Assembly: GCA_945865535.1 (NCBI GenBank)
Contig: CAMBDW010000009.1
Location: 1 to 64,000, forward strand
Length of the DNA: 64,000 nucleotides
From: Chryseobacterium gleum
Lineage (GTDB): Bacteria; Bacteroidota; Bacteroidia; Flavobacteriales; BACL11
Direction of reading: 5' to 3'
The position numbers and the translations under genes are program-made. The notes beneath the pieces were generated by a model. It was not told the origin of the DNA and searched no databases. It worked only from the letters and a program-made list of their open reading frames with translations. This document shows, piece after piece, positions 31,406-36,121 of this stretch; the stretch's first letter is position 1; every line of letters begins with the position of its first letter.

Positions 31406-32119
31406 ATGAAAGTAATTGGGATTATCCCTAGTAGATACAGCTCAACAAGATTTCCAGGCAAACCATTAGTAGATATTCTTGGCAAAAGCATGATTCAAAG
31501 AGTATATGAACAATCCAAAAAATGTGCTTCACTTACAGATGTAATAGTCGCTACTGATGACAGCAGAATTTACAATCATGTTTTAGGCTTTGGAGGGAAA
31601 GCTGAAATGACATCCAAAAGACATAAAACAGGAACAGAAAGGTGCAATGAAGTGGCTCAAAATTTACATACTCCATTTGATGTTATTGTAAATATTCAAG
31701 GTGATGAACCACTGATAAATCCTTTACAAATAAATGAAATAATTCAACTTTTTGATGATCCAAAAACACAAATAGGAACACTGGCAAAAAAGATTGATGA
31801 TACAGCAACTCTTGAGGATGAAAACACTCCAAAAGCCATTTTTGATACACAAGGAAATGCTCTAAATTTTTCCAGAAAAATTTCAAATATAGCCACTGAA
31901 TTCACATATTATAAACATATCGGAATTTATGCTTATAAAAAAGATGTCTTAGAGAAAATATGCCAATTACAAGAAAGTACTAATGAAAAAAAAGAACGCT
32001 TAGAACAGTTAAGATGGCTTGATAATAACTATACCATTAAGGTAGGGATTACCAATTTTCAGACACTTTCGGTTGACACCCCTGAAGATATTGAAAAAAT
32101 TAAAGTTCAAATGAGATAA
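31406..32119 (+). CDS. kdsB: 3-deoxy-manno-octulosonate cytidylyltransferase
   Basis: Activates Kdo as CMP-Kdo for the lipopolysaccharide inner core. 237 residues: the N-terminal VIGIIPSRYSSTRFPGKPL motif, VIVATDD, KRHKTGTERCNE and VNIQGDEPLI are the expected substrate- and metal-binding segments. One base after the TonB receptor stop. It confirms Kdo-containing LPS, relevant to the glycosyltransferase genes 2 kb away. Confidence 0.95.
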   Translation: MKVIGIIPSRYSSTRFPGKPLVDILGKSMIQRVYEQSKKCASLTDVIVATDDSRIYNHVLGFGGKAEMTSKRHKTGTERCNEVAQNLHTPFDVIVNIQGDEPLINPLQINEIIQLFDDPKTQIGTLAKKIDDTATLEDENTPKAIFDTQGNALNFSRKISNIATEFTYYKHIGIYAYKKDVLEKICQLQESTNEKKERLEQLRWLDNNYTIKVGITNFQTLSVDTPEDIEKIKVQMR

Positions 32120-33121: not shown

Positions 33122-33631
33122 ATGATCGCAAAAACGCCAAGCCAATCAAGAGCAATTTTAACAGAAATTGTTTTGCCAAATGATACCAATAACTTAAACA
33201 ATTTGATGGGGGGACGCTTATTACATTGGATGGATATTGCGGCTGCTATCACGGCTCACAGGCATTGCAATCGAACTTGTGTAACGGCTTCTGTCAACAA
33301 TGTTTCTTTCGAGCATCCCATCCCAAAAGGAAGTATTGTAACCCTTGAAGCAAATATTTCTAGAGCTTTTTCTTCATCTATGGAAATATTTATTGACGTA
33401 TGGACTGAAGATACCTTGTCGGGCAATAAAACAAAATGCAATGAAGCGATTTATACTTTTGTAGCTGTTGATGCTATGGGAAAACCAGCAAAAGTTTCGG
33501 AGGTAAAACCAGAAACAGAATTAGAAAAGAAACGCTTTGATGGGGCGCTTAGAAGAAGACAACTTTCTCTTATATTAGCAGGTAAACTAAAAGCCAGTGA
33601 AGCTTCAGAGTTAAAAGCTTTATTCGTTTAA
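33122..33631 (+). CDS. Acyl-CoA thioesterase (hotdog fold)
   Basis: 169-residue hotdog-fold enzyme of the YciA/ACOT type, hydrolysing acyl-CoA to free acid and CoA. The diagnostic helix reads NNLMGGRLLHWMDIAAAITAHRHC, and CVTASVNNVSFEHPIPKG forms the following strand. It starts 3 bases after the HU/SPOR stop, so the two are likely co-transcribed. Chain-length preference unknown. Its 3' end marks the edge of the anomalous glycosyltransferase island. Confidence 0.88.
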   Translation: MIAKTPSQSRAILTEIVLPNDTNNLNNLMGGRLLHWMDIAAAITAHRHCNRTCVTASVNNVSFEHPIPKGSIVTLEANISRAFSSSMEIFIDVWTEDTLSGNKTKCNEAIYTFVAVDAMGKPAKVSEVKPETELEKKRFDGALRRRQLSLILAGKLKASEASELKALFV

Positions 33632-33827
33632 AAATAAATTTTCACACGTCCAGAGAAATTGAGCATTACCAGAATGACGTTCCTAACCGCATGATGAATA
33701 AGAAAGCTTAATTAGTCGAGCTTCCATCCTCTAAGCTGAGACTGAAAGTATTTTTTCATAATTATGTTTACCACTAAAAAAATGCAGAGGCCATATATCA
33801 GCAATTTATTATGGGACATAATAAAGA
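33632..33827. other. Non-coding edge of the anomalous GC-richer segment
   Basis: 196 bases without a convincing gene. Hand count of 33661-33720 gives 24 G/C in 60, above typical local intergenic DNA. It contains a 9-bp inverted repeat TTTATTATG/CATAATAAA (33805-33813 and 33817-33825, 3-nt loop), just after the glycosyltransferase stop; it lacks a T-tract, so it is a poor terminator. Confidence 0.4.
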
Positions 33828-34838
33828 CTATTCGCGAAGCAGGCGACGAATCTCTTTTGCGACCAGTTCAGCAGTAACCCCGACCATGCATAACTGGTAG
33901 ACACTCTGTGAACATGCCCCTCTTCCATCTTTAGTACAAGGTCTACAAGCAAGATCCATTTCTATCGTTACAATCTGCTCACTTGTGGTAAACCCAAACG
34001 CAGTAGGGCCCATTAATGAGATGGCCTTAACTCCCAACACATCAGCAACATGCAATAATCCTGTATCTGCAGATACCACAAGAGAAGACTGCTCTATTAA
34101 TGCACAACTCTCAACAAGAGAGAGCTTGCCTGCAAGGTTTTGCACCTTTGTAGGACTAATCGCTTTTAATTCCTCACAGAAAGTATCTTCTTTACCTCCA
34201 AGAATTATGAAGGATCTCTCCGGCATTAAAGTGATGAGCTTTTTCCAATGATCCAAAGGCCATCTTTTCATCTCCCATGCCGCAGAAGGAACTAGAACAA
34301 TAAGGTTCGTATTTTTCAAGAAAGGAAGCACTTTTTGACGGTTTTCTTTAGTAAAATTCCAGGATACCATTTTTTGTCTTGTGCTAGGAAGTATCTCCCA
34401 CTTCTTCAAAGGACGGAAGAAAGATTCAATACCTCTAAATGGCCAAGGAAAAGTATTAATCCGGAATGAAAAAAGCAGAATTCTTTTCAAACGATCTTTT
34501 GGTCTTTTCAACCAGTGTGGCCTCTTCGCAAGAGTCATTCTTAAGTAAATAGAGAGCAGATTTGAACGCAAATTATTGTGAGCATCATAAACATGATCAT
34601 ATTTTTCAAAACGCAGATTCTTGGCCAGCTTCAAAAGCCCGACCAATCCTTCTTTTTTATTAAAAGACCATACATGATTGACATGTGAGTTAAGTTTAAC
34701 AAGGTAATCAAACTCACTTCTAGTAACCCAGTCAATCTGGGCATCTGGGTATTTCTGACGGATTAATTCAACCACTGCCGAACACTGGACAATGTCACCA
34801 AAACTGGAAAAGCGAATAATTAAAACTTTATTTATCAT
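33828..34838 (-). CDS. Glycosyltransferase family 9 (heptosyltransferase-like), compositionally foreign
   Basis: Complete GT-B glycosyltransferase of about 336 residues: N-terminal VLIIRFSSFGDIVQCSAVVELI, DHVYDAHNNLRSNLL, VLVPSAAWEMKRWPLDHW, and the donor-site SADTGLLHVADVLGVKAISLMGPT. The C-terminus has CRPCTKDGRGACSQ. Such enzymes add heptose or similar sugars to the LPS core. Hand counts of six 60-base lines (33841, 33901, 34081, 34141, 34201, 34741) give 23-31 G/C, against 13-16 in the neighbouring native lines at 34921 and 34981; one further line inside the gene (34441) gives 20. This suggests acquisition. The start (ATG 34838, or 34841) overlaps the end of a truncated native paralogue by 11 bases. 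Confidence 0.85.
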   Translation of the reverse strand: MINKVLIIRFSSFGDIVQCSAVVELIRQKYPDAQIDWVTRSEFDYLVKLNSHVNHVWSFNKKEGLVGLLKLAKNLRFEKYDHVYDAHNNLRSNLLSIYLRMTLAKRPHWLKRPKDRLKRILLFSFRINTFPWPFRGIESFFRPLKKWEILPSTRQKMVSWNFTKENRQKVLPFLKNTNLIVLVPSAAWEMKRWPLDHWKKLITLMPERSFIILGGKEDTFCEELKAISPTKVQNLAGKLSLVESCALIEQSSLVVSADTGLLHVADVLGVKAISLMGPTAFGFTTSEQIVTIEMDLACRPCTKDGRGACSQSVYQLCMVGVTAELVAKEIRRLLRE

Positions 34839-35310
34839 CATTATCATTTGATAAGAGACCAAATCCCTCTATAATGGAATCCTTCACAATGGCATTTATA
34901 TTAAAAAATTTCACAGTATCTAGATACCTATCCACTATGTGAACATCCGGTAAAATATTTTTTTTAAAACTTGTTAAAAGAAATTTCTCCCAATTCAATT
35001 TATTAAAACTTTTAGCAGCAAATCCTAATCTAATTTTTAAAATTTGAGTTCGTAAATTATTATGCAAATCAATTACATAATCATAATTTTCTTTTTTTAA
35101 ATCAGAAATTACCTCTTTAATAGAATTATTAATTTGAAAGACAGCATCCACATTTGGATTGTTTTTAAAAAGAGTAACGAAAGGTGCTTTTGTAAGGAAA
35201 TGAACCTGAGCATTCAACTGTTTTTTTAGCATTCTTACAACAGGAGTTGTAAGCACAATATCTCCAATTGAGGAGAATCTTACTACTAATATTTTAAGTG
35301 TTTCTTGCAC
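34828..35310 (-). pseudogene. Truncated native glycosyltransferase family 9 gene (N-terminal half)
   Basis: 160 residues, about half of the normal 340. It opens like a heptosyltransferase (LKILVVRFSSIGDIVLTTPVVRMLKKQL) and keeps YDYVIDLHNNLRTQILKIRLGF, but breaks off after EGFGL, leaving only LLSNDNDDK before the stop. The C-terminal donor-binding domain with the nucleotide-sugar site is missing. The start is GTG. AT content matches the rest of the chromosome. The second family-9 gene begins inside its last codons, so it probably still serves as the transcribed leader for that gene. It could be translated, but is unlikely to be active alone. Confidence 0.8.
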
Positions 35311-35347: not shown

Positions 35348-36121
35348 ATGCAATTTATTGATAGCCACAGCCATTTATATAGCGAACAGTTTGATAAAGA
35401 CAGATCAAAAGTTGTTTCGGACGCGATAGCACTAGGAGTTACTACTTTTTTATTGCCAAATATATCAAGTAATTACACTGAAAGAATGCTTACTCTCTGC
35501 AGTGAATTTCCAAATAATTGTTTTCCAATGATAGGTTTACATCCTTGTGATGTAAGGGAAGAAAATTATGATCAAGAAATTGCTCATGTAGTAGAACAAT
35601 TAGCTGCAGGAAATTACATTGGAGTGGGAGAAATTGGGCTAGATTTATATTGGGATAAAACTAATCTAGAAATTCAGAAAAAAGCATTTATTTTTCAAGT
35701 AGAATTAGCAAAAAAGCACCAATTACCTATTGCAATTCATGTCCGAGATTCTTTTAATGAAGCCATTGAGATAATTGAGGGGTTAAATGATGAAACTCTA
35801 AGAGGTGTGTTTCATTGCTTTTCTGGAGAGATGAAAGATGCCAAAAAAATAATCGATTTAGGAGGATTTTATCTGGGAATTGGAGGGGTATTAACATTTA
35901 AAAATTCAGGGCTTGATAAAACAATAGCTGAAATAGATTTAAAACACTTAATTTTAGAAACAGATGCTCCTTACCTTGCTCCTGCTCCTTTTAGAGGAGA
36001 AAGAAATCAAAGCAAGTATCTTATAAATATTGCTGAAAAACTAGCAGAAGTACATAACATTAGCATTGAAAGGGTGGCAGAGATTACTACTAAAAATGCA
36101 AAACATCTTTTTGGAATATGA
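35348..36121 (+). CDS. tatD: TatD family metal-dependent hydrolase (DNase)
   Basis: TIM-barrel metallohydrolase, 257 residues, members of which act as 3'-5' exonucleases/DNases in DNA repair. Metal ligands are visible in IDSHSHLY (HxH), GEIGLDLY, IHVRDSF, VFHCFSG and ETDAPYLAP. The stop overlaps the asparaginase start by four bases. Family is certain; the physiological substrate is not. Confidence 0.92.
   Translation: MQFIDSHSHLYSEQFDKDRSKVVSDAIALGVTTFLLPNISSNYTERMLTLCSEFPNNCFPMIGLHPCDVREENYDQEIAHVVEQLAAGNYIGVGEIGLDLYWDKTNLEIQKKAFIFQVELAKKHQLPIAIHVRDSFNEAIEIIEGLNDETLRGVFHCFSGEMKDAKKIIDLGGFYLGIGGVLTFKNSGLDKTIAEIDLKHLILETDAPYLAPAPFRGERNQSKYLINIAEKLAEVHNISIERVAEITTKNAKHLFGI

Follow-up and report, generated by a model that had tools for sequence, protein, structure and literature searches.

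Probable replacement of most of a native family-9 glycosyltransferase gene by a Bacteriovoracaceae DNA segment in a Flavobacteriales-like genome

Results

Organization and native state of the locus

The window analysed here is a stretch of 64,000 nt, in which the locus of interest lies between the genes for a TatD DNase and an acyl-CoA thioesterase; its features are collected in Table 1. We observed 2 ORFs related to family-9 glycosyltransferases (GT9), laid out as a sequence-only reading of this DNA had described them: a 160-aa ORF and a complete GT9 gene, hereafter gene 2, which starts within the end of the shorter ORF so that the two overlap by 20 nt. That reading had also taken the shorter ORF to be a native gene that stops after its N-terminal domain, and this was correct. 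The 160-aa ORF gave no match in Pfam, matched the N-terminal part of the NCBIfam heptosyltransferase models, and was about 33-40% identical to gene 2 over the N-terminal domain.

The 2 ORFs differ in base composition, as had been noted by hand count. GC content is 39% in the inserted segment vs 26% in the native part, and gene 2, with a GC3 of 0.363, is an outlier among ORFs of the window (0.221 +/- 0.031 for the 55 others, maximum 0.284, z = 4.6). Bacteriovoracaceae relatives of gene 2 have GC3 values of 0.23-0.42, with the three closest at 0.32-0.36. The G/C excess was said to continue into the non-coding DNA to the 3' side of gene 2; these 172 bases are 33% GC, which is about the window average, although their foreign origin was upheld by homology.

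In the relatives examined, the TatD–GT9–thioesterase locus contains a single intact GT9 gene of ~316–345 aa. Same-family relatives in which the locus was read largely share the gene order asparaginase - TatD / GT9 - thioesterase - IHF/SPOR protein, and in the closest relatives the last bases of the thioesterase gene overlap the GT9 stop. Alignment with relatives thus recovered the intact native gene that the sequence-only reading anticipated, one per locus, and a search for the same two-gene arrangement in these relatives again returned the single intact GT9.

Remnants of this native gene flank gene 2 on both sides. The 5' remnant comprises the first ~133-136 codons (83% aa identity to relative G021 and 76% to G010); it shares its GTG start with those 2 relatives, and its upstream sequence is conserved. 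The 3' remnant overlaps the thioesterase stop as it does in relatives. Because the last 8 native codons survive, both junctions lie inside the native gene. Between the remnants, ~523-526 bp of native sequence are absent, and the native C-terminal half is found nowhere else in the assembly. The proposal that the donor-sugar-binding half was removed and the native upstream region retained is therefore sustained; that gene 2 has captured the native promoter is what we infer from this arrangement.

Table 1. Features of the GT9 locus, in coordinates of the window
Feature	Position	Strand	Remarks
Thioesterase gene, native conserved flank	33122..33631	+	acyl-CoA thioesterase, PF03061; identity to the counterpart at this locus about 67-91% in most relatives
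Surviving native GT9 3' end	33620..33643	-	GAAAATTTATTTTTAAACGAATAA, encoding ENLFLNE and stop, the last 8 codons; aligned with L003, L004, L005 and L008
3' junction microhomology	33628..33644	-	TGAAAATTTATTTTTAA; native L004 TGAAAATTTATTTCTAA, donor L027 TGAAATTTAGTTTTTAA, near-identical
Decayed convergent adenosine-deaminase-like remnant	33631..33827	+	KINFHTSREIEHYQNDVPNRMMNKKA and stop at 33631-33711; contains the 3' junction
Bacteriovoracaceae-derived segment	33645..34902	-	~1,258 bp; colinear with L027-L036
Gene 2, complete acquired GT9	34847-33828	minus	339 aa; assigned by PF01075 (100 bits), tree and GC3
Divergent donor PilT-like ATPase gene start, remnant	34889..34909	+	reads MAFILKN; donors MAFTLKN/MAFTVKN
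5' junction microhomology	34903..34911	-	AAATTTTTT; native L003 AAAATTTTT, donor L029 GATTTTTTAA
Truncated native ORF	35310-34828	minus	160 aa, GTG start
Surviving native GT9 5' part	34912..35310	-	codons 1-133; the 160-aa ORF continues into donor DNA
TatD DNase gene, native conserved divergent flank	35348..36121	+	PF01026; identity to the counterpart at this locus 49-74% in most relatives
kdsB (KDO activation)	31406-32119		identified from sequence; close by

Origin of gene 2 and extent of the insert

When 84,980 species genomes were scanned with the gene 2 protein, 45 loci were returned, almost all of them in Bdellovibrionota; the best matches were in Bacteriovorax MAGs, with identities of 71 and 70%, followed by one in a Bacteriovoracaceae MAG (69%). 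In the phylogenetic tree, gene 2 branched next to four Bacteriovoracaceae sequences that form its sister clade, with support of 100/97 and a root-to-tip length similar to that of its sisters, and the native GT9s were located far away. Separate branching of the 2 family-9 proteins, which the sequence-only reading had proposed for examination, was thereby confirmed; the opposite outcome, joint branching within Flavobacteriales, was considered in the same tree, where gene 2 nests inside Bacteriovoracaceae. In the other 51 host-family genomes we found no relative of gene 2 above 32% identity, and identity between the incoming protein and the native GT9 proteins reaches only ~26-31%. Since the nearest donor is merely 71% identical, the true donor is unsampled.

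A Bdellovibrionota-like GT9, 44% identical to gene 2, is encoded on a Marinifilaceae (Bacteroidota) MAG contig (L049:5004-6029). This may reflect a second transfer into Bacteroidota, of older date, or mis-binning. In addition, GT9s from 2 MAGs titled Epsilonproteobacteria (L038) and Deltaproteobacteria (L068), with taxonomy Campylobacterota and Myxococcota, branch among those of Bdellovibrionota; the labels of these records are probably outdated.

Homology to the donor loci extends beyond gene 2. In blastn comparisons with L027-L036, the insert matched at 65-70% identity over ~1.1 kb, and a second block matched at 71-79% over 70-110 bp. The insert preserves the donor order, namely the start of a PilT-like gene (PF00437, T2SSE, in the donor), intergenic DNA, the complete GT9 gene and a convergent adenosine-deaminase-like gene (PF00962 in the donor). 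The PilT-like remnant lies partly inside the 5' junction microhomology. The deaminase remnant was 68-77% identical by tblastn to the inside of the donor protein in 12/12 donors tested, and its DNA match exceeded those of 50 shuffles in each of 4 donors; it has suffered a ~155-bp internal deletion and a stop in a gene that is conserved in the donor loci compared. As the insert bears the edges of both donor neighbour genes, it is a piece of donor chromosome of ~1,258 bp. The sequence-only reading had proposed that about 1.2 kb was transferred into a homologous gene, which agrees with this result; the flanks of the Bacteriovoracaceae locus came along as well. Its description of the transfer as single-gene is slightly inexact, as pieces of 2 donor neighbour genes accompanied the one complete gene.

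Junctions and age

The sequence identities at the junctions are about 9 bp at the 5' end and up to 17 bp at the 3' end, and both are A+T-rich. Neither end shows a long homologous anchor, the 3' end having only up to ~17 bp of near-identity. With 1,258 bp gained and 523-526 bp of native DNA lost, the event has the appearance of an insertion coupled to a deletion, with microhomology at the joins. From the join to the new start, 1/3 frames is open; it is the frame used by the native fragment, which ends in the start region of gene 2, so that translational coupling of the 2 ORFs is possible.

Changes in the native fragment, counted by codon position, were 5/2/14 on its own branch and 4/3/13 on the sister branch, and thus by this test the fragment shows no excess of non-synonymous change: either the break is recent or the native part is still constrained. 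Together with the donor-like GC3 of gene 2, the absence of such an excess suggests a fairly recent event. Against recency, erosion of the donor tail has already set in, and no donor sequence is closer than 71% identity. Values of dS between gene 2 and donors are saturated, and so do not date the transfer.

Predicted function of gene 2 and the heptose pathway

Gene 2 scored 100.2 bits against PF01075 (Glyco_transf_9; gathering score 22), the match covering profile positions 2-238/247. It fell below all three NCBIfam equivalog cut-offs for Hep I, II and III, with 113.4/185.3 bits (score/cut-off) for TIGR02193, 104.5/134.6 for TIGR02195 and 73.4/170.2 for TIGR02201. No other PF01075 gene was found in the assembly; the family relatives tested hold one or two, except for the 67%-complete genome G001. 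GmhA and both HldE domains (HldE-I and HldE-II) are intact in the host, so that ADP-D,D-heptose can probably be made. Gene 2 would most likely transfer heptose to the LPS inner core and, being the sole intact GT9 while gmhA and hldE persist, is likely to have replaced the native GT9 in function.

The host hldD, whose product would supply the L,D-heptose precursor, looks like a pseudogene, with deletions of 7 bp and 2 bp (L077, G000:C14:36018-36892, minus strand, outside the window). If so, the LPS would carry only D,D-heptose. G003, G009 and G010 have an intact hldD, and in the same-genus genome G001 both of its halves are open. Divergent from hldD, at about 8896-9009 of L077, a small zinc-finger gene that is DksA/TraR-like by sequence has eroded to a fragment; it is intact in G001, G003 and G010. 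HldD scored above the model cut-off in only 6/15 family relatives and was undetected in some nearly complete genomes, an observation that concerns G002, G005-G008 and G012-G014; several of the tested relatives with no HldD above the cut-off keep HldE and GmhA. Possibly, this heptose epimerase has been lost recurrently in the host family.

We considered whether gene 2 might use ADP-D,D-heptose and so make HldD dispensable. This idea was not supported, for HldD is encoded in 17/18 genomes with a gene 2 relative, and some HldD-less host relatives keep the native GT9, among them the nearly complete genomes G008, G012 and G013, where HldD was undetected above the model cut-off. As HldD can be missing where the native GT9 is present, and is present in donors, there is no clear link between loss of HldD and the replacement.

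Discussion

In the aggregate, we regard it as very probable that ~1.26 kb of Bacteriovoracaceae DNA replaced most of the native GT9 gene; gene 2, the only intact GT9 gene found in the assembly, likely now provides the sole GT9 activity of this genome. In the sequence of events that we envisage, a ~1.26-kb fragment from a Bacteriovoracaceae cell would have entered an ancestor of the host genome and become fused with the native GT9 gene, each join being made through a short A+T-rich microhomology within that gene, and ~525 bp specifying the C-terminal, nucleotide-sugar-binding half would have been deleted. The fragment would have brought one complete GT9 gene and the edges of 2 donor neighbours. 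Read-through from the region upstream of the native gene probably provides for transcription of gene 2. The translation of gene 2 may be coupled to that of the truncated native ORF whose stop its start overlaps, and its product, as the only GT9, would most likely transfer ADP-heptose to the LPS inner core. Against this role stand the scores below every NCBIfam heptosyltransferase equivalog cut-off and the hldD pseudogene. That a GT9 gene landed in a native GT9 gene with no guiding DNA homology suggests selection; disruption of the native gene may be tolerated only when a working substitute arrives with the insert.

The insert and its junctions are known from one MAG (30 contigs, 94% complete), and the single same-genus genome (G001, 67% complete) is without the locus. 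An assembly chimera, in which a fragment of a Bacteriovorax contig was spliced into a flavobacterial contig, must accordingly be weighed: the genome is a draft in 30 contigs, public sets commonly contain Bacteriovoracaceae MAGs, and no second genome carries the junction. Such an artefact would nevertheless require 2 breaks, separated by 1.26 kb, within one gene of a 71.8-kb contig, would leave the native C-terminal half to be found elsewhere in the assembly, where it is not, and would have to account for a deaminase remnant that is degraded by deletion and stop, unlike the conserved gene of the donor loci compared. A chimera joining twice in one gene with an already decayed donor tail is unlikely, and we give this explanation very little weight. 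We give practically none to the idea that a short-plus-long GT9 pair, arisen by duplication or gene fission, is normal for the clade. Both ORFs are indeed GT9-like and about 33-40% identical over the N-terminal domain, as such a pair would be; yet in the sampled relatives the locus has just one GT9 gene, which is intact, gene 2 falls with Bacteriovoracaceae sequences in the tree and is absent from the other 51 genomes of the family, and the insert is edged by donor neighbour genes. A native pair was rejected on these grounds.

The replacement itself could have taken more than one route. In a two-step history, a lossless insertion in or near the native gene would have been followed by deletion of the redundant native C-terminal half. 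Later deletions did happen, as the ~155 bp lost from the donor tail attest, and the native N-terminal part is under ordinary codon-position constraint (5/2/14 vs 4/3/13 for the sister). This course needs more events, however, and donor and native sequence abut directly on both sides, so that we consider it rather unlikely, if the least so of the alternatives. Entry by phage or plasmid instead of as free DNA appears improbable to us. These are common vehicles of HGT, and the sequence here keeps no record of the entry route; but IMG/VR yielded no relative of gene 2 by the patterns used, the best phage and plasmid matches were 28% and 29%, respectively, and the insert, which has no mobile gene, is flanked by genes of the donor chromosome. 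Replacement by a ~1.26-kb chromosomal fragment remains the reading we prefer.

By this replacement, a gene appears to have moved from the predatory Bacteriovoracaceae out into a likely prey, a Flavobacteriales-like lineage, in an HGT event resolved almost to the base, for the sequence reveals from which family the DNA came, which donor genes lay beside it, what native stretch it replaced and where it was joined on either side. The event hits the only detected host GT9 for the LPS core, a layer that phages and predators may meet, and offers a case for testing the one-step swap of core-sugar transferases across phyla. One might speculate that a predator LPS-core transferase confers a predator-like surface and fewer attacks by Bacteriovorax-like predators (or phages), which would select for the replacement, with the Marinifilaceae GT9 (L049) as a second independent case; we hold this to be quite improbable.

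With regard to mechanism, homology-facilitated and double illegitimate recombination (the former abbreviated HFIR) have been described in natural transformation of S. pneumoniae, A. baylyi and P. stutzeri, and experimental HFIR gives ~1-kb insertions and ~1-kb deletions with 3-10-bp microhomology at the illegitimate junction (PMC3240628). The event described here likewise combines a foreign insertion of ~1 kb, a host deletion of similar order and microhomology at the junctions. It differs in being natural and seen only as its product, and in having extensive homology at neither end. Two illegitimate joins, or an anchor since lost, would be a better description than HFIR; the donor strain being unsampled, a lost anchor at one end is possible.

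Lateral gene transfer involving Bdellovibrio and like organisms has been reported as genes entering predators (PMC3539863, PMC5760749, PMC12642874), and an assay with Bacteriovorax as donor and A. baylyi did not find transfer (PMC12642874). Gene flow between predators and other bacteria is common to those reports and to ours; here, the predator lineage is the donor. We found no report of a predator as donor in the literature searched, which is not proof of absence.

As a class, the event is of a known kind, xenologous gene displacement, with an unusual donor. As in displacement in situ, a foreign homologue has taken over the locus of the native gene that it replaced, the native homologue is kept at the locus in relatives, and gene 2 branches in a distant taxon. 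Xenologous gene displacement is usually recognised for orthologues. Unlike the usual case, the gene 2 protein is only ~26-31% identical to the native ones, and broken ends of the native gene are left on both sides. With regard to the enzyme, gene 2 resembles WaaF (heptosyltransferase II, 1PSW) and PF01075 members in aligning full length with WaaF and in having the N-terminal catalytic GD motif (in RFSSFGDIV) and the C-terminal nucleotide-sugar motif DTGLxH (in VSADTGLLHVA), and differs from Hep I, II and III in lying under their NCBIfam equivalog cut-offs.
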